Origin: Lentilactobacillus kefiri
GTDB taxonomy: Bacteria; Bacillota; Bacilli; Lactobacillales; Lactobacillaceae
Assembly: GCF_007989105.1 (NCBI RefSeq)
Contig: NZ_BJVK01000004.1
Location: forward strand, 1-64,000
Direction of reading: 5' to 3'
DNA length: 64,000 nucleotides
Below, one piece after another: positions 20-37,008 of this stretch. The translations under genes and the position numbers were made by a program. Numbering within the stretch: the first letter of the stretch is position 1; the number at the start of each line of letters is the position of its first letter. Below the pieces are notes generated by a model. It did no database searches, was not told the origin of the DNA, and saw only the letters and a list, made by a program, of their open reading frames with translations.

Positions 20-151
20 GTGTCACTCGTTCAAATCAGCATATATAAATATACCGAATTTTCGGTGATCCGTCAATAGTTGATTTCAAATTAGTTTCAT
101 TTTTTGGCCGCGAGGTTTCAATTGGTACATTTGGATTAGCATCAAGGTAAA

Positions 152-29257: not shown

Positions 29258-30550
29258 TTATCCTTTGGTTCGCTTGTAGTGCATCCCCTTACGCTTGGAA
29301 TGCTTATGTTTCTTTTTACCCTTTGGCTTTGGAGCAGCAGGTCTTTTCGCAGGCTTCTTCTTGGCATCAAACTTCTTTTCTACCGCACCGTTGGACTTGG
29401 ATTCAGACGCTTTTTCTTCTTCATCCAAATTAACCGGCGTTGTTGGTCGCGTGTCAGACAGTTGATTACCGTCAAAAAAGATATTTTTCAACTGATATCC
29501 GTATGGTTTAACCAACTTCTTGATATCTCTCAGGTCATGATCGTCACCCATGTTGATGACCATCCCATCTTGATGCATGCGGCCGGTTCTGCCGACCCGA
29601 TGAATATAGGTTTTCGGATCAGACGGTAAGTCAAAGTTGACGACGACCGGTAACTTTTCGATGTCCATTCCCCGAGCGGCAACGTCGGTTGTCAGTAACA
29701 GCCGAATCTTACCATCCCGAAAATCTCGTAACGCCTTTTGACGGGAAGTTTGGCGCTGCTCACTGGTTAAAGTGGCGGCTTCTTTAATGTGTCGATGCAT
29801 CAAAAAGCCGGCGACCTTTTGGAGTGTATCCAGTTGATCAAAGAACACCAGTGCTTTGAAATCCTTCATGTGAAGAAATCTCAACAGCATCTGCTCTTTT
29901 TTACGATTGGAAACTTCCAAAAGGGTGTGCTTTACTTCCCCTCTGGTATCGTCAATGTCGGAAACATCGTACGTTTGAATGTCTTGAATAAACCAGCGAT
30001 TGATGTGTTCCAGAAGGTCATTTTTAGTCGCTGAAAAGAATCCGAGGGAAACATCATCCGGAGCCAAATCAACCAGTGACCTGATTGAAGCCAGCGTATC
30101 CTCACTCAACAAATTGTCAGCTTCATCAATGACAATGGCTTTAAGCGAATCCAATTTTAATTTACCCAGATCGATCAAATTCATAATTCGACCGGTCGTC
30201 CCGACAATCACGTTGGGATGCTCTTTAAGCTTGTCCTCTTGCCGGTTGATATTGGCACCACCGATGATGCCTTGAACGGACAAGCCAATCAGCTTTCCCC
30301 ATTCCAACAGCACTTTTTGCGTCTGCATGGCCAACTCGGCAGATGGTTCGATGACTAATAATGCCAAACCATCTTCAGGCTGAATATTTTCAAGTAACGG
30401 GAGCGCAAACGCAACCGTCTTGCCGGATCCGGTTGGGGCTAATCCCAAGACACTTTTACCATCCTTTAACGGCTGATAAACAGCTTTTTGGATGGCTGTC
30501 GGTTTTTTGTAGCCTAACTTGGCTGCATGTTCTTTAAATTCTTCTATCAC
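29258..30550 (-). CDS. DEAD-box ATP-dependent RNA helicase
   Basis: A 430-aa RNA helicase with all core motifs: Q motif (YKKPTAIQ), Walker A (APTGSGKT, about residues 38-45), DEAD (VIDEADNLL), SAT (FFSATK), and the second domain with TDVAARGMDIEKLPVVVNFD and HRVGRTGR. The C-terminal 60 residues are Lys/Arg-rich (KKKHKHSKRKGMHYKRTKG) and should bind RNA. It resembles the shorter CshB/YfmL-type helicases of Firmicutes rather than CshA. The start is GTG with GGAG upstream. It lies 24 bases after a Gfo/Idh gene. Confidence 0.93.
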   Translation of the reverse strand: MIEEFKEHAAKLGYKKPTAIQKAVYQPLKDGKSVLGLAPTGSGKTVAFALPLLENIQPEDGLALLVIEPSAELAMQTQKVLLEWGKLIGLSVQGIIGGANINRQEDKLKEHPNVIVGTTGRIMNLIDLGKLKLDSLKAIVIDEADNLLSEDTLASIRSLVDLAPDDVSLGFFSATKNDLLEHINRWFIQDIQTYDVSDIDDTRGEVKHTLLEVSNRKKEQMLLRFLHMKDFKALVFFDQLDTLQKVAGFLMHRHIKEAATLTSEQRQTSRQKALRDFRDGKIRLLLTTDVAARGMDIEKLPVVVNFDLPSDPKTYIHRVGRTGRMHQDGMVINMGDDHDLRDIKKLVKPYGYQLKNIFFDGNQLSDTRPTTPVNLDEEEKASESKSNGAVEKKFDAKKKPAKRPAAPKPKGKKKHKHSKRKGMHYKRTKG

Positions 30551-30574: not shown

Positions 30575-31576
30575 TTACTTGTGTTCACCCACAAATGAAA
30601 TATGGGCGTCTTGTCGAAGGTTATAAATCACTTTATTGACATAAACACTCAGTTGACGCCAATAGTCATAATCCTTCTTATTTTGTGGAATCTTGGGATC
30701 GTTAATCACTCTGGCAAAATCTTCTACTTCTGGAAGCATGGGATTTTCGTCGATAGTGTTGCCAATCACCTGTTTATTATTGTCATCATCGATATAAATG
30801 ACCGTGTTAAGCTCACCAGCATCATCAATCTCAATTAAATCCTTCAGACCATATATTTCTGAGGTCATATGCGAATTGGTGATCTTGGAGAAGTTTAAAG
30901 TCACATTATACTCCGGATAACGTAAAATTGCTGTACCCTTTCCGTCAACACCGGTTCTAATCAGCTGTGGGAAATAAGCAGTTTCTTCAGGCATCCCAAA
31001 TAGGGCAACAGCATCGTAAACCGTGTACACACCCAAATCCTGCAGGGCACCTCCGGCATACTTCAGTGAAAAGACATTTGGCTCCTGGCCTTTAAGAACC
31101 AGATCATACCGGGAAGAATATTTCGAGTATGTAAACTCGGCGCCCTGAACTGTCTTAAAATCACCCAACTTCTCTTCAATCGAGTGGAAGTTTTCCGTGT
31201 GAATATTTCTGGCAGCTTCAAAATACAAAACGTTGGGATTGTGAATCAGCAGCTCTTGAATTGTGGCCATTTGCTTTTGCGTGCTAAATGCCGGCTTTTC
31301 AACAATCACATTTTTACCATTTTGAATGGCTTTTTGTGCCTGCTCGAAATGCAAACTGTTTGGCGATGCAATATAAACCGTGTCAAAATCACCCTGAGTG
31401 AAAAATGAATCTAAATCCGTAAAGGTTTCTTTAGCACTGTTTTTATCCGCAAAAGCTTTGGCTGTCTCTTCATGTCGGGAATAAACAGTCGTTAACTCAA
31501 ACTTCTGTGACAATTTGATTGCGTCAATAAATTGCTGGGTAATCCAGTTAGTTCCAATTATACCTAACTTAATCAA
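30575..31576 (-). CDS. Gfo/Idh/MocA family NAD(P)-dependent oxidoreductase
   Basis: A 333-aa dehydrogenase with an N-terminal Rossmann fold (LGIIGTNWITQQFIDA) and the family motif VIVEKPAFST, in which the Lys of EKP contacts cofactor and substrate. The C-terminal alpha/beta domain has GGALQDLGVYTVYDA, containing the usual active-site Asp. Substrate is unknown; sugars or inositols are typical. The frame starts with GTG at 31588, but GGGTGG eight bases before the TTG at 31576 favours the latter, placing MIKLGIIG at the N-terminus. Confidence 0.9.
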   Translation of the reverse strand: MIKLGIIGTNWITQQFIDAIKLSQKFELTTVYSRHEETAKAFADKNSAKETFTDLDSFFTQGDFDTVYIASPNSLHFEQAQKAIQNGKNVIVEKPAFSTQKQMATIQELLIHNPNVLYFEAARNIHTENFHSIEEKLGDFKTVQGAEFTYSKYSSRYDLVLKGQEPNVFSLKYAGGALQDLGVYTVYDAVALFGMPEETAYFPQLIRTGVDGKGTAILRYPEYNVTLNFSKITNSHMTSEIYGLKDLIEIDDAGELNTVIYIDDDNNKQVIGNTIDENPMLPEVEDFARVINDPKIPQNKKDYDYWRQLSVYVNKVIYNLRQDAHISFVGEHK

Positions 31577-31719
31577 TGTGATAACCACCCTTCTTTAATT
31601 AAATTGTAACAAGCTTTTAACCCAATGAAAACGAAATCAGACACTCTCTGTTATATTTATCAAGTATACTTAGTGTCTAATATGCTTAGGGGGATGATTT
31701 TTTGCGCAAATGAAGTTTA

Positions 31720-32070
31720 TTGATTTTTATGGTGTCCTTTTTAATTAGTCTTTTTCATACGAAAAAAGCACCTAAGAATCAGCCAGATCCTGCAGATCCA
31801 CTGTTTTTCGTAGGTACCTGGCAATTTAAGGATCACCGTAACCGAATCCATCGGTTGGAAATTGGTCCGGATTTGAAATTATTAATCGATGGCAAAGATA
31901 TGTCAGCCAAGGTTTCATTGTTAACCAGATATGAGTTATCATACATTGATAAATTTGGTTACAAATTGGAAATTCGTGGAAACGAATCTCAACCAATCAA
32001 ATTCTATGACGAATCCGAAAATTACACCTATGATTTGCATTCAGCAAACGACTCAAAGATTGCTGATTAA
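31720..32070 (+). CDS. DUF4828-like small protein
   Basis: A 116-aa protein, basic near the N-terminus with a short hydrophobic start (MVSFLISLF), then a beta-rich domain (FVGTWQFKDHRNRIHRLEIG) like the DUF4828 family of lactobacilli. The frame can only begin with TTG 31720 or ATG 31729, neither with a proper ribosome site. AGGGGG at 31688-31693 instead points to short overlapping frames (ATG 31694, ATG 31710) that stop early. The start may therefore be disrupted or coupled to an upstream leader frame. An AGACACT/AGTGTCT inverted repeat lies at 31639-31678 in the promoter region. Confidence 0.6.
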   Translation: MIFMVSFLISLFHTKKAPKNQPDPADPLFFVGTWQFKDHRNRIHRLEIGPDLKLLIDGKDMSAKVSLLTRYELSYIDKFGYKLEIRGNESQPIKFYDESENYTYDLHSANDSKIAD

Positions 32071-32113: not shown

Positions 32114-32872
32114 CTAGTCAACATATCGATGCCACTCTGAGCGATTACCGTTGAAAACAGACATTGGCAAAAAGACCAGCTGTCTGTCCAACCTGAAGTC
32201 TTTCTTGCTGTCCGCTTGAATAAAGGTCGCGTCGGCATTTGGTTTACCGATCCGACCGTTTGTCAGCCAGAATTGCGTCTTCGAGTTGGCCGTCAACTTA
32301 AGGCTCTTGATAATTTGCTTGGTAGCAGAAATCACCACCGGCCGTTTATAGTAGTTTCGCAATAACGCTGAAAGGTAGCGAACTTCTTTGCTCGCTTTTT
32401 TCCAGTGAATCGACGATTGATTAAAGCTCCCATAATATTGAATTTGGATACAGATTGGCAGACTCCCGGTATTGTATTTAACCTGACGGACAAAGTTTTT
32501 GAACTGCGCAGTCGGTGAACTTGTAAAACTGAAATAATGGTAAACACCGATTGGCAGCTGGGAACCCTGGCTGCGTTGGAAATTACTCGTAAAGCTGTCG
32601 TCCGTGTATGCTGCTCCCTGAGTGGCTTTCAGATAGACAAAGCTGATCCCTTTGTTCTTCAAACTTTCGAAATCAATGTACCCGTTATTTTGGTTGATTG
32701 TGACCCCACGGATTGGGTACTTTTTAAGCTGTTCATTTTCATGCCAACGAATTAACAGAAATCCTGAGATAATCACCAGGATCACCAAAAAAATGCCGAG
32801 ACCTACCCTTCGAGTGCGCTTTCGGCGCTGGTAAGTTTCAGCATATATTGGTTGAATGTCTCTTCGCTTCAT
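32114..32872 (-). CDS. Membrane-anchored GH25 lysozyme-like protein lacking catalytic acids
   Basis: A 252-aa protein with a basic N-terminus, one membrane helix (about 23-42) and an extracellular GH25-type domain (about 54-252). Family landmarks remain: GISFVYLKATQG (residues 75-86) and PIGVYHYFSFT (107-117). Yet the usual catalytic D-x-E, expected after LPICI, is Q-x-Q (Gln143, Gln145), and the first-strand Asp of G-[IV]-D is Thr58. All three acidic residues that build the active site are thus replaced, so muramidase action is unlikely. The frame is intact and not decayed, which suggests a retained binding role on peptidoglycan. It lies 35 bases behind the RpiR gene. Confidence 0.8.
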   Translation of the reverse strand: MKRRDIQPIYAETYQRRKRTRRVGLGIFLVILVIISGFLLIRWHENEQLKKYPIRGVTINQNNGYIDFESLKNKGISFVYLKATQGAAYTDDSFTSNFQRSQGSQLPIGVYHYFSFTSSPTAQFKNFVRQVKYNTGSLPICIQIQYYGSFNQSSIHWKKASKEVRYLSALLRNYYKRPVVISATKQIIKSLKLTANSKTQFWLTNGRIGKPNADATFIQADSKKDFRLDRQLVFLPMSVFNGNRSEWHRYVD

Positions 32873-32907: not shown

Positions 32908-33753
32908 TTAGCTGCGAGTGCTCTCAATAATATTTTGAACGTTGCGAATCGTATCTTCAGTTGCCGGTCCCATTCGAACCGTTGCCATCATAAATAACGT
33001 GTCCACAATGGCCAACTGGGCAAGAAGCGAATACATTCCTTCTGAACGGTAATTTGATTCATCACTGGATGAAATAAATGTAATGTCACTGTGAGCGGCA
33101 AGTGGTGAATCCGGATAACTGGTAATTCCAATTACCGGTACCTTCCGCTTCTTTAACGTTTCTGCCACCTTCAGGGTTTGTCGGTTCTTCCCTGAATGTG
33201 AAACGACGATTGCGCAATCTTCCTCACCTAATTTTACAGCTTGCATCAACTGTACGTCAAAGTCAGGATAATAGAAACACTCAATCGAGGTTCGGAGAAA
33301 TTTGTGGTAACCATCCAACGCAGCGACTGACGAACCGCCAAGGCCGAATAGCCCCAGACGACGGCAGTGAATAATTCTTAATACTGCGCGAGCAAATTCG
33401 TCTTCATCAATGCCGGTGCGGGTATCTTGAATTGCCCGTTGACTGCTGTTGAAAATCTTGTCAGCAATTGTCCCCAAAGAATCATTTGCATCAATATCTT
33501 TAAAGATCGGCAAATTCTGCGGCCGTAACTGCGTATATGCCAAAGCTAACGTGAACTCACGAAAATTACCATAACCCAATGTCTTCACTAATCGAGACAC
33601 TGAAGCTGTCGAAGTTTCGGTGACGGCTGCTAAATCTTCAATGTTTGCTTCAGATGCTGCTTGAGGGTTTTCCATCACGTACTTGGCAATTTTCTTGTTG
33701 GTTCTGCTTAACTCATAAAATGACTGTTTTAATAATTGAACTGGCGAGCTCAT
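32908..33753 (-). CDS. MurR/RpiR family transcriptional regulator
   Basis: A 281-aa regulator: N-terminal HTH_6 domain (about 1-77, with NIEDLAAVTETSTASVSRLVKTLG) and a C-terminal SIS sugar-phosphate-binding domain (about 120-260, GLFGLGGSSVAALDGYHKFL). AAAGG eight bases upstream favours the ATG at 33753 over the GTG at 33762. It is divergent from gntK-gntP, so it probably senses 6-phosphogluconate and controls gluconate use. That role is inferred from context. Its likely operators are the inverted repeats in the intergenic region. Confidence 0.9.
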   Translation of the reverse strand: MSSPVQLLKQSFYELSRTNKKIAKYVMENPQAASEANIEDLAAVTETSTASVSRLVKTLGYGNFREFTLALAYTQLRPQNLPIFKDIDANDSLGTIADKIFNSSQRAIQDTRTGIDEDEFARAVLRIIHCRRLGLFGLGGSSVAALDGYHKFLRTSIECFYYPDFDVQLMQAVKLGEEDCAIVVSHSGKNRQTLKVAETLKKRKVPVIGITSYPDSPLAAHSDITFISSSDESNYRSEGMYSLLAQLAIVDTLFMMATVRMGPATEDTIRNVQNIIESTRS

Positions 33754-33820
33754 AATGATCACCTTTCATGTTGTGTAAGTGTCTTATTTTCATCAATGTA
33801 AATATTTTACAACAAAATCC

Positions 33821-33849
33821 TTGCATTGTGAAATTGTTTTTCATATAAT
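33821..33849 (+). promoter_or_regulatory. gntKP promoter
   Basis: TTGCAT (33821-33826), a 17-base spacer and perfect TATAAT (33844-33849). The spacer holds a perfect inverted repeat TGAAA-N5-TTTCA (33829-33843). The leader to gntK is about 195 bases. Confidence 0.75.
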
Positions 33850-33871
33850 TGTGTTTGCGTTTACAAAGACA
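33850..33871. promoter_or_regulatory. Candidate RpiR operator at the gntK start point
   Basis: TGTGTTTG (33850-33857) and CAAAGACA (33864-33871) form an inverted repeat, TGTNTTTG-N6-CAAANACA, directly behind the -10 element and over the predicted +1. This is where a repressor would act. Assignment to the neighbouring RpiR regulator is inference. Confidence 0.5.
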
Positions 33872-34000
33872 GGAAATTCAAGGGTCAAAATGTTTGAAGT
33901 CTCCTGCTTATAATGATATTTTTAGTTAGAAGCGGTACCGAGCCAATTCTTCGTCAACAGACATTTGGTTAACGATGCAGCTATATTTTTTGCAATTATT

Positions 34001-34014
34001 TGAAAGCGCTTCGG
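34001..34014. promoter_or_regulatory. Imperfect cre-like motif before gntK
   Basis: TGAAAGCGCTTCGG keeps the left half and centre of the cre consensus but not the final CA. It lies in the long gntK leader, about 37 bases before the ATG, where a roadblock by CcpA is possible. Confidence 0.4.
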
Positions 34015-34050
34015 CCGTTGCTTAACTAATACAGAAGGGAAGTTATTTAC

Positions 34051-35613
34051 ATGGATTATACGCTAGGTGTTGATATTGGAACAACCAGTGTTAAAACCGT
34101 GCTCTACGATGTTAAGGGTAAGGTTCATGGATACTCCAACAATGGATATCCACTATACCAGGACACCCCTGATATGGCCGAGGAAGACCCCGAAGAAATC
34201 TTTTCAGCAATGTTTGACGGCATTACTGAACTGGTTCGGAAGGCCAATATGAAAAAAGGTGAGCTCAAAGGAATTGCATTTTCATGTGCCATGCACAGTT
34301 TGATTCTTTTGGATGACGACCATAAGCCACTCACCCGAGCAATTACTTGGGGCGACAACCGGGCCGTCAACTATGCCGACAAGCTGAAAGCAAGTCCTGA
34401 AGGCATGGAAATTTACAAACATACCGGAACACCGATTCACCCAATGACACCTCTTACCAAATTAATTTGGCTGAGAAACGATAAACCGGACTTGTTCAAA
34501 AAGGCTCGTTGGTTTGTTGGAATTAAGGAATACATCCTTTATAAATTATTTGGTGTCTTAAAGGAAGACTATTCAATCGCCAACGCAACCGGCATGTTCA
34601 ACATCTACAATATGGACTGGGATGACCAGGCATTGAAGATCGCCGGCGTTACCCGTGACCAATTACCTGAGTTGGTAGATACAACCTACCAGTTAAAGGG
34701 AATGCATGAAGAATACGCCAAAGTTTTGGGAATCGATATTAATACCCCATTTATCATTGGTGCATCAGACGGTCCCCTTGCCAACCTTGGTGTCAATGCC
34801 ATCAAACCCGGTGTTGTCGCCGTTACAATTGGAACTTCAGGTGCTGTTCGGGTTGTCACCGACAAGCCTCATACCGATCCAAAAGCCCGGGTATTCTGTT
34901 ATTACCTTGCTAAAAACATGTGGGTGATTGGTGGACCTGTTAACAACGGTGGCGTTGTCTTCCGTTGGGTCCGTGATCAACTTTGCGCACCTGAAAAAGT
35001 AACCGCTGAACAAATGCATATTGATCCATATGACTTATTGACAGAAATTGCTGCCAAAGTTCCTGCTGGATCAAATGGCTTGCTGTTCTTCCCATTCTTA
35101 GGCGGCGAACGGGCACCAATTTGGGATGCCAACGCGCGTGGCTCATTCTTCGGATTGAACCGGACCCATACCCGTGCGGATATGATTCGTGCCGTTTTGG
35201 AAGGAATTGTTTACAACCTGTACACCGTTGCATTAGCCCTTGAAGAAGTTGTCGGCCGCCCTACCAGCATTCAAGCAAACGGTGGGTTTGCCCGTTCTGC
35301 TCTTTGGCGTCAAATGCTGACCGATATTTTCGAACAGGATGTTGCCATCCCTGAGAGTTTCGAAAGTACCGCCCTTGGTGCAGCCACTCTTGGCATGTAC
35401 AGCTTAGGTTTAATTGACAGTCTTTCCGACGTTTCCAATTTTGTCGGAACCACGGTTGTCCACCATCCAAATCCAAAGAACTTCCAGTCATACCGGGAAC
35501 TCATTCCAATTTATATTCGTTTGAGCCGTTCATTACAGCCAGAATATAAGAATATTGCCGAGTATCAACGCCGTCATGAGCACGATGATGAAGACGCCAA
35601 AAAATCTGATTAA
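34051..35613 (+). CDS. gntK: Gluconokinase (FGGY family)
   Basis: A 520-aa kinase that phosphorylates gluconate to 6-phosphogluconate, the entry to the pentose phosphate/phosphoketolase route. The N-terminal phosphate-1 motif (GVDIGTTSVKTVLYD) and the ATPase-fold motifs (IGASDGPLANLGVNA, GTSGAVR, and NGGFARSALWRQM near the C-terminus) are intact. The family is the FGGY type used by Gram-positives, not the small GntK of enterics. gntP follows after 33 bases in one operon. AAGGGAAG precedes the ATG. Substrate assignment rests on the gntP neighbour and overall similarity. Confidence 0.93.
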   Translation: MDYTLGVDIGTTSVKTVLYDVKGKVHGYSNNGYPLYQDTPDMAEEDPEEIFSAMFDGITELVRKANMKKGELKGIAFSCAMHSLILLDDDHKPLTRAITWGDNRAVNYADKLKASPEGMEIYKHTGTPIHPMTPLTKLIWLRNDKPDLFKKARWFVGIKEYILYKLFGVLKEDYSIANATGMFNIYNMDWDDQALKIAGVTRDQLPELVDTTYQLKGMHEEYAKVLGIDINTPFIIGASDGPLANLGVNAIKPGVVAVTIGTSGAVRVVTDKPHTDPKARVFCYYLAKNMWVIGGPVNNGGVVFRWVRDQLCAPEKVTAEQMHIDPYDLLTEIAAKVPAGSNGLLFFPFLGGERAPIWDANARGSFFGLNRTHTRADMIRAVLEGIVYNLYTVALALEEVVGRPTSIQANGGFARSALWRQMLTDIFEQDVAIPESFESTALGAATLGMYSLGLIDSLSDVSNFVGTTVVHHPNPKNFQSYRELIPIYIRLSRSLQPEYKNIAEYQRRHEHDDEDAKKSD

Positions 35614-35646
35614 CGTTACGTTTTTGCATTACGAAAGGGGAAAACT

Positions 35647-37008
35647 ATGATATTAAAGCTGCTTGCTTTGTTAATCGGAATCATCTTCTTACTGGTTCTG
35701 ATTATCAAATTCAAAATTAATACCTTCGTTTCATTGGTATTAACTGCTGTTGTTACTGCGGTCATGCTGCAAATGCCTTTAGGCACGATCGCTGATTCTG
35801 TTTCAAATGGTATTGGAAGTCAACTTGGGGAATTATCCATGGTCTTTGGCTTTGGTGCCATGTTAGGGCGACTGGTTTCCGATTCCGGTGGTGCTTATAT
35901 GATCGCCGAAACGCTTATCAAACGATTTGGTAAACAGCGTCTCCAGATCGCCGTTATGCTTGCTTCATTTATTTTAGGAATTGCATTGTTCTTCGAAGTT
36001 GGAATGGTTTTACTTGTTCCAATCGTATTTGCAATCGCCGTTGAAGCCGGTGTGCCAATTCTTTATTTGGGAATTCCAATGGCCGCTGCCTTGTCAGTTA
36101 CCCACGGATTCCTGCCACCCCATCCAGCACCAGTTGCCATTGCGCAAGTATTGGGTGCCAACGATGGTAAAGTTCTCTTGTTCGGTTTTGTCATTGCAAT
36201 TATTGCCGCTTATATTGCCGGACCACTGTTCTCAAAGATGGCTAAAAAGTATGCACCAGCTGCCTTCGAACGTAAAGGTAACCTTTCTTCAATTGGTGAA
36301 GTTAAACAATTTACACCAGAAGAATCACCATCCTTTGGCCTTTCAGTATTAACCGCCCTCTTCCCAGTTATCTTACTGGCGATTTCAACCATCTATAAGA
36401 TGACTGTTAACGGTGGGGTTGAACCTAAGAACCCAACCACGATTGATTCAATTGTGGAATTCATCGGTTCACCAAGTATCGCAATGTTAATCTCATTGTT
36501 CTTTGCAATGTATACAATGGGCTGGGGTCGTAAACGAAGCACTGCTCAAATTATGGAATCACTTGAAAATGCCGTTAAATCAATTGCCATGCTGCTCTTG
36601 GTTATTGGTGGTGGTGGTGCCTTCAAGCAGGTCCTGATTGACGGTGGTGTTGGTAAAGCCGTTGCTCAACTGTTTATTGGTTCACCAATCTCACCATTAA
36701 TCTTAGGCTGGTTGGTTGCCGTTGTTCTCCGAATCGCTTTGGGTTCCGCAACTGTTTCGTCATTAACTGCCGCAGGAATTGTTGCCCCACTGATGTCACA
36801 AGCCGGAGTTGACCCGGCACTAATGGTTCTGGCTATTGGAGCCGGTTCACTTGCCGCATCTCATGTTAACGATGCCGGCTTCTGGATGTTCAGAGAATAT
36901 TTCGATTTGACTGTTAAACAAACATTACAGACATGGACCGTTCTGGAATCGATCATTTCAGTTGTCGGAATTGTAATGGTAATGGGATTGAATCTGTTGT
37001 TCCATTAA
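35647..37008 (+). CDS. gntP: Gluconate permease, GntP family
   Basis: A 453-aa membrane protein with 12-14 helices of the gluconate:H+ symporter family. GFGAMLGRLVSDSGGAYMIA, HGFLPPHPAPVAIA and GAGSLAASHVNDAGFW are family signatures. It is second in the operon with gntK, so the pair should import and phosphorylate gluconate. The ATG is preceded by AAAGGGG. A strong terminator follows. Confidence 0.94.
   Translation: MILKLLALLIGIIFLLVLIIKFKINTFVSLVLTAVVTAVMLQMPLGTIADSVSNGIGSQLGELSMVFGFGAMLGRLVSDSGGAYMIAETLIKRFGKQRLQIAVMLASFILGIALFFEVGMVLLVPIVFAIAVEAGVPILYLGIPMAAALSVTHGFLPPHPAPVAIAQVLGANDGKVLLFGFVIAIIAAYIAGPLFSKMAKKYAPAAFERKGNLSSIGEVKQFTPEESPSFGLSVLTALFPVILLAISTIYKMTVNGGVEPKNPTTIDSIVEFIGSPSIAMLISLFFAMYTMGWGRKRSTAQIMESLENAVKSIAMLLLVIGGGGAFKQVLIDGGVGKAVAQLFIGSPISPLILGWLVAVVLRIALGSATVSSLTAAGIVAPLMSQAGVDPALMVLAIGAGSLAASHVNDAGFWMFREYFDLTVKQTLQTWTVLESIISVVGIVMVMGLNLLFH

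Follow-up and report, generated by a model that had tools for sequence, protein, structure and literature searches.

A GH25-type pseudo-lysozyme of the Lactobacillaceae that has lost its active-site acids

Lentilactobacillus kefiri encodes a homolog of the GH25 lysozymes that has kept the fold of the family and lost its active-site acids. The gene lies in the window, which is the whole stretch of 64,000 nucleotides from contig NZ_BJVK01000004.1 that was analyzed in this study. Its orthologs in the Lactobacillaceae share the loss of the acids, have a single origin, are under constraint and occur in a conserved gene neighborhood. From the missing acids, we infer that the protein would not hydrolyze peptidoglycan in the manner of GH25 enzymes. 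We consider it most likely, at somewhat better than even chances, that this pseudo-lysozyme is a non-enzymatic protein that faces the cell wall and binds glycan or serves as a scaffold.

Architecture and fold of the pseudo-lysozyme

The open reading frame runs from 32872 to 32114 on the minus strand and shows no frame damage. The charge pattern of the N-terminal tail and the helix predicts that the N-terminus is located inside and the barrel outside the cell, as in a type II (single-pass, N-in) membrane protein.

32114..32872 (-): pseudo-GH25 gene, 252 aa, coordinates include the stop codon
32807..32872 (-): positively charged N-tail, residues 1-22, with 9 K/R and 2 D/E, predicted to be cytoplasmic
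32747..32806 (-): single transmembrane helix, residues 23-42, with a hydropathy maximum of 3.04 (window 23-41)
32117..32716 (-): GH25-type barrel, residues 53-252, predicted to be extracellular

The only Pfam domain that scored above its cut-off was Glyco_hydro_25 (PF01183), with an E-value of 3.6e-20 and a score of 73.5 bits, as compared to a cut-off of 27, and the M23/LytM domain was not among the matches above the cut-off. A structure was predicted with AlphaFold2 from the pseudo-GH25 protein and 40 orthologs (pLDDT 91.7, pTM 0.83). The model, which places the membrane helix at residues 10-49, has its best match among solved structures to 2wag, a GH25 protein from Bacillus anthracis (Foldseek E-value 3.5e-17), with a Z-score of 26.1, a TM-score of 0.82 and an rmsd of 2.3 over 203 residues. 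The initial annotation had described a membrane-bound GH25 homolog with an intact fold and frame, and had proposed an overlay of the predicted structure on GH25 enzymes. The Pfam match, the transmembrane helix, the barrel model with its match to 2wag and the undamaged reading frame all bear out this description. A more distant relative is Rv2525c from Mycobacterium tuberculosis (PDB 4pmq), which is also an exported GH25-like barrel (Z-score 13.4), but is Tat-secreted and has an identity of 12%.

The N-terminal tail contains a PIYxxT motif, which is carried by 44 of 70 orthologs. The motif is thus common but not general, being absent from more than a third of the sequences, and it was discarded as a shared cytoplasmic motif; none of the motifs in the tail is invariant among the 70 orthologs. 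Members from genus g29 (L251-L253) have a size of 306-336 aa, contain a Ser/Lys-rich linker between the membrane helix and the barrel, and lack the GVxxxQ motif.

Active-site acids in L. kefiri and its orthologs

Residue equivalences were taken from the alignment to 2wag. The acidic sites listed below are those that we take to be the active-site acids of GH25 enzymes, as established from Chalaropsis lysozyme, Cellosyl and Cpl-1.

32699..32701 (-): codon for Thr58, site of the first-strand catalytic Asp (2wag alignment)
32690..32692 (-): codon for Gln61, invariant across family members, missing from active relatives
32618..32620 (-): codon for Gln85, site of the Glu in KATEG (alignment)
32444..32446 (-): codon for Gln143, site of the Asp in DxE (2wag alignment)
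32438..32440 (-): codon for Gln145, site of the Glu in DxE (2wag alignment)
32165..32167 (-): codon for Pro236, site of the C-terminal active-site Asp in the (V/I)D(L/I)N motif (alignment)

The alignment agrees with the initial annotation in placing Thr58 at the first catalytic Asp and a Gln143-x-Gln145 pair, which is Gln143-Ile-Gln145 in L. kefiri, at the DxE motif. Two further acids that were not listed there are also gone, with Gln85 in place of a Glu and Pro236 in place of an Asp. Three features of active GH25 enzymes are missing, namely the Asp at the end of strand 1, the DxE of strand 4 and the C-terminal active-site Asp.

Each of the 28 other GH25 domains from the order that served as controls, including four (L012-L015) from the L. 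kefiri genome itself, has both the first Asp and the DxE motif, whereas none of the 67 orthologs has either of them, and the loss of the acids is therefore not due to chance. The DxE counts were read from the aligned segments; automatic column counts were shifted by gaps. Positions 58, 85, 143, 145 and 236 are acidic in 92-96% of 26 active relatives, as compared to 6-14% of 35 family members, with position 236 being acidic in 92% and 6%, respectively.

The replacement of the acids by isosteric glutamines had been proposed as a conserved signature. The survey of the orthologs speaks against this proposal, since residues 143 and 145 drift freely. Among the 67 orthologs, the residues at position 143 include Q (28), A (9), S (6), Y (6), T (5), H (3) and D (2), and those at position 145 include Q (20), S (15), T (12), N (5), D (3), E (3) and P (3). 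Five different residues (Q, A, T, L and S) occur at position 143 within Lentilactobacillus alone. Judged from the aligned sequences, the conserved trait is the absence of acids, not glutamine.

Alternative acids that might fill the active site were also looked for in the aligned sequences and rejected. Conservation of acids across the family is limited to D67, D91 and D92, of which the first two are conserved also in active enzymes (D67 in 77% of the 26 active relatives and 97% of the 35 family members, D91 in 100% of both), while D92 is found in about one fifth of the active relatives. These results bear on the explanation that the protein is still an enzyme, with an altered chemistry or another substrate. 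The retained cleft and a few members with single acids at position 143, 145 or 60 are consistent with such an activity, but there is no conserved acid pair specific to the family, and the substitutions at positions 58, 143 and 145 are unconstrained, unlike those of a new catalytic site. We therefore regard a retained enzymatic function as very improbable. In genus g37 (L133, L136-L139), a Glu replaces the first catalytic Asp (GIELDQ), and Gln61 is retained.

Among 32 positions that are conserved in the active relatives, Q63, W68, F113, P140, Y182 and G228 are nearly gone from the family. Residues G56, F78, G86, G109, L138 and P139 are kept, and Y111, H112 and W202 are retained in 71-77% of the members. 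The latter three are all lost in the g37 lineage, and Tyr111 and Trp202 are found in most members elsewhere. Newly fixed in the family are Gln61, Gly136, Ile140 and Asp92. Gln61 is present in 97% of family members but in none (0%) of the active relatives, and it is located directly after strand 1 in the model (residues 55-59), a position that would correspond to the catalytic face, as expected for the strand-1 end of a TIM barrel.

Glycan binding was ranked first among the possible functions on two grounds. The fold persists along with much of the aromatic cleft, and a Glu-to-Gln form of Cpl-1 still allows a ligand complex. This complex is PDB 2ixv, which was recovered among the structure matches and consists of phage Cpl-1 E94Q with a peptidoglycan analog; we take E94Q to replace the Glu of the DxE motif by Gln, in a GH25 enzyme whose ligand nevertheless stays bound. 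The neutral old cleft of the pseudo-lysozyme, with Tyr111, His112 and Trp202 largely kept and Gln61 at the rim, would hold a wall glycan without cutting it. The glycan held in this manner may be a peptidoglycan strand or an attached polymer, and the pseudo-lysozyme would tether the wall, or report it, at the membrane surface. The cleft may not bind glycan everywhere, however, since the six residues named above are nearly gone and the three aromatic-cleft positions are lost in g37. The absence of PIYxxT from more than a third of the sequences was also counted against glycan binding, as was the lack of a phenotype upon deletion of Lys1 in Lactobacillus plantarum (see below), if Lys1 is an ortholog.

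Distribution, origin and constraint

All named Lentilactobacillus matches are orthologs of the same size and architecture, with identities of 62-88%. Orthologs were identified in 25 of 40 sampled Lactobacillaceae genera, with a genus counted as positive if the match had an E-value of up to 1e-12, and were not detected in the remaining 15 of the sampled genera. The weak-match genera g37, g27 and g29 were checked by sequence and were also found to be without the acids. A wider profile search scored ten candidates per genome, and a genome without a match there was not taken to lack the gene. In genome G034 (genus g34; L248, L255), which has a size of 1.6 Mb, the ortholog is split over two frames, possibly a recent loss.

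In a phylogenetic tree that excluded the five catalytic columns, all Lactobacillaceae members form one clade (100/99). Relatives from the Enterococcaceae are placed just outside, as the closest outgroup, and the two groups together form a clade (100/98) that branches within the active GH25 proteins from the Bacilli, including 2wag. The active relatives are mostly proteins of about 240 aa that have an intact site and carry a membrane segment at the N-terminus. Thus, 2wag and the membrane-anchored GH25 proteins of the Bacilli are the nearest relatives in the tree and resemble the pseudo-lysozyme in the barrel and, in many cases, the membrane segment, but differ from it in having the complete set of acids. 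The Enterococcaceae relatives (G316, G329, G390, G404) are intermediate: the KATEG Glu (E85) and the DxE Glu (E145) are kept in all four and the C-terminal Asp (D236) in three, but both of the other Asp residues (D58 and D143) are absent.

These half-degenerate sites, together with the nesting in the tree, suggest a stepwise loss along a single vertical line, which is the simplest history consistent with the sequences. Two acids would already have been missing from a common ancestor with some of the Enterococcaceae, and all five would have been gone in the ancestor of the Lactobacillaceae, after which the barrel would have been retained by purifying selection.

The dN/dS ratio to the orthologs of L. 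otakiensis, L. sunkii and L. parakefiri is 0.040-0.046, a value within the range of 0.023-0.055 obtained for the neighboring oxidoreductase and helicase genes; the ratios are only approximate because dS is 1.8-2.7, near saturation. With the fold intact, the acids gone and the gene retained under selection, the non-catalytic role suggested by the initial annotation is a sensible reading. A decaying gene without function might account for the 15 genera in which no ortholog was detected and for the split frame in the small genome G034, but full-length frames over many genera, a dN/dS of about 0.04 and residues that are invariant despite deep divergence argue for the opposite. We find this explanation hardly credible.

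Gene neighborhood and possible partners

The genes surrounding the pseudo-lysozyme gene in L. kefiri were compared to those at the other loci in a set of 44.

29258..30550 (-): DEAD-box RNA helicase, downstream, in 43 of 44 loci and always on the same strand
30575..31588 (-): Gfo/Idh/MocA oxidoreductase, downstream, in 38 of 44 loci and always on the same strand
31720..32070 (+): DUF4828 gene, opposite strand, a neighbor in 30 of 44 loci
32908..33762 (-): RpiR-type regulator, just upstream with a gap of 35 nt, near the pseudo-GH25 gene in 19 of 44 loci

The RpiR-type regulator adjoins divergent genes for a gluconokinase (TIGR01314) and a gluconate symporter (TIGR00791), and the region 32908-37008 is a plain gluconate utilization locus to which the regulator belongs. 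A link to a MurR-type regulator of the cell wall, as hinted at in the initial annotation, was thus rejected, since the regulator is part of a gluconate gene set and not a constant neighbor.

The stop codon of the pseudo-lysozyme gene and the start codon of the helicase gene overlap as TAATG in two g37 loci (L179, L180). Overlaps of 8 nt were also observed, and overlapping junctions are found in several genera. The conserved operon with genes for a cytosolic oxidoreductase and a helicase suggests that the pseudo-lysozyme is expressed with growth or translation functions rather than with an autolysis set. The helicase neighborhood was absent from the loci of active Bacilli relatives that were read. 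Three of the four Enterococcaceae genomes share parts of the gatB-to-helicase region, with the gene located farther from the helicase gene. The half-degenerate gene adjoins a gene of 279-285 aa in G316, G329 and G390 (L173-L175), and gatB/dgk/rlmD-like genes are located on its other side in G316 and G329.

The neighborhood raises the question of whether the protein is a partner of the helicase, either as an anchor in the membrane or as a sensor of the envelope, and in this way couples the handling of RNA or ribosomes to the membrane or to the state of the wall. The same-strand order in all but one of the loci, the overlapping junctions and the synteny with the three Enterococcaceae genomes are consistent with such a partnership. 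However, apparent helicase orthologs are present in genera g19, g22, g30 and g31, in which the pseudo-lysozyme was not detected; a co-loss of the two genes was thus rejected, and the helicase is not dependent on the pseudo-lysozyme. Moreover, the tail has no invariant motif and unrelated genes often share operons, and we find a helicase partnership quite unlikely. It is likewise unlikely, if a shade less so, that the dead site has been rebuilt around the invariant Gln61 as a receptor for a wall ligand, which would link the state of the wall via the tail and the shared operon to the oxidoreductase and the helicase.

The main rival to glycan binding is that the barrel would be a module that binds proteins and thereby switches or recruits a genuine hydrolase or synthase of the wall, by analogy to EnvC, NlpD and DipM. 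The regulation of hydrolases by catalytically dead proteins with a wall-hydrolase fold is well established (PMC10336132, PMC8416486), and these degenerate LytM proteins act on amidases and transglycosylases. Like the pseudo-lysozyme, they have a wall-hydrolase fold without catalytic residues, and serve a non-enzymatic role (PMC10336132), but they belong to an unrelated fold and family (M23), and the analogy is functional only. A binding module would also be consistent with a surface that drifts while the fold and the loop residues Gln61, Asp92 and Gly136 are fixed, and at least four intact GH25 proteins in the L. kefiri genome are possible clients. On the other hand, no hydrolase gene is a conserved neighbor of the pseudo-GH25 gene in the 44 loci, and a knockout of the presumed ortholog in L. 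plantarum autolysed like the wild type in three media (PMC3533731). Protein binding is in our view possible, and clearly less probable than the binding of glycan or a scaffold role.

The presumed ortholog is Lys1 (lp_1158), a GH25 protein; no differences in growth, morphology or autolysis were reported for its deletion (PMC3533731). In the genomes of genus g38, the pseudo-GH25 gene is accompanied on its strand by a small acm1-like GH73 gene at a distance of 22-29 kb. Four of the seven genomes also have a GH73 gene of the size of acm2 at another location. This spacing matches that of lp_1138 (acm1) to lp_1158 (lys1), and Lys1 is thus probably an ortholog, as judged by gene position and not by sequence comparison. 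Gene positions in genus g15 did not fit and this genus was rejected for the placement of Lys1. A second likely ortholog, by description rather than by sequence comparison, is LCABL_12360 of L. casei, a GH25 protein of 28.0 kDa that has no signal peptide and was not among the peptidoglycan hydrolases detected by proteomics. Inventories of peptidoglycan hydrolases give both proteins as putative muramidases. When the open-access literature was searched for GH25 pseudoenzymes, no papers were returned, which hints only weakly at a family that has not been described before.

Automatic pipelines annotate the pseudo-lysozyme as a GH25 lysozyme, and it is probably entered as a muramidase in inventories of lactobacillus hydrolases, as for Lys1 and LCABL_12360. 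With the whole set of acids lost along one line of descent, represented in 25 of 40 genera, these inventories need to be corrected, and the loss of the acids would explain a knockout without a lytic phenotype. The proteins form a natural series, in which the site is intact in the Bacilli, half lost in the Enterococcaceae and fully lost in the Lactobacillaceae. This series makes it possible to ask how a wall hydrolase turns into a binding protein, in food bacteria that are genetically tractable.
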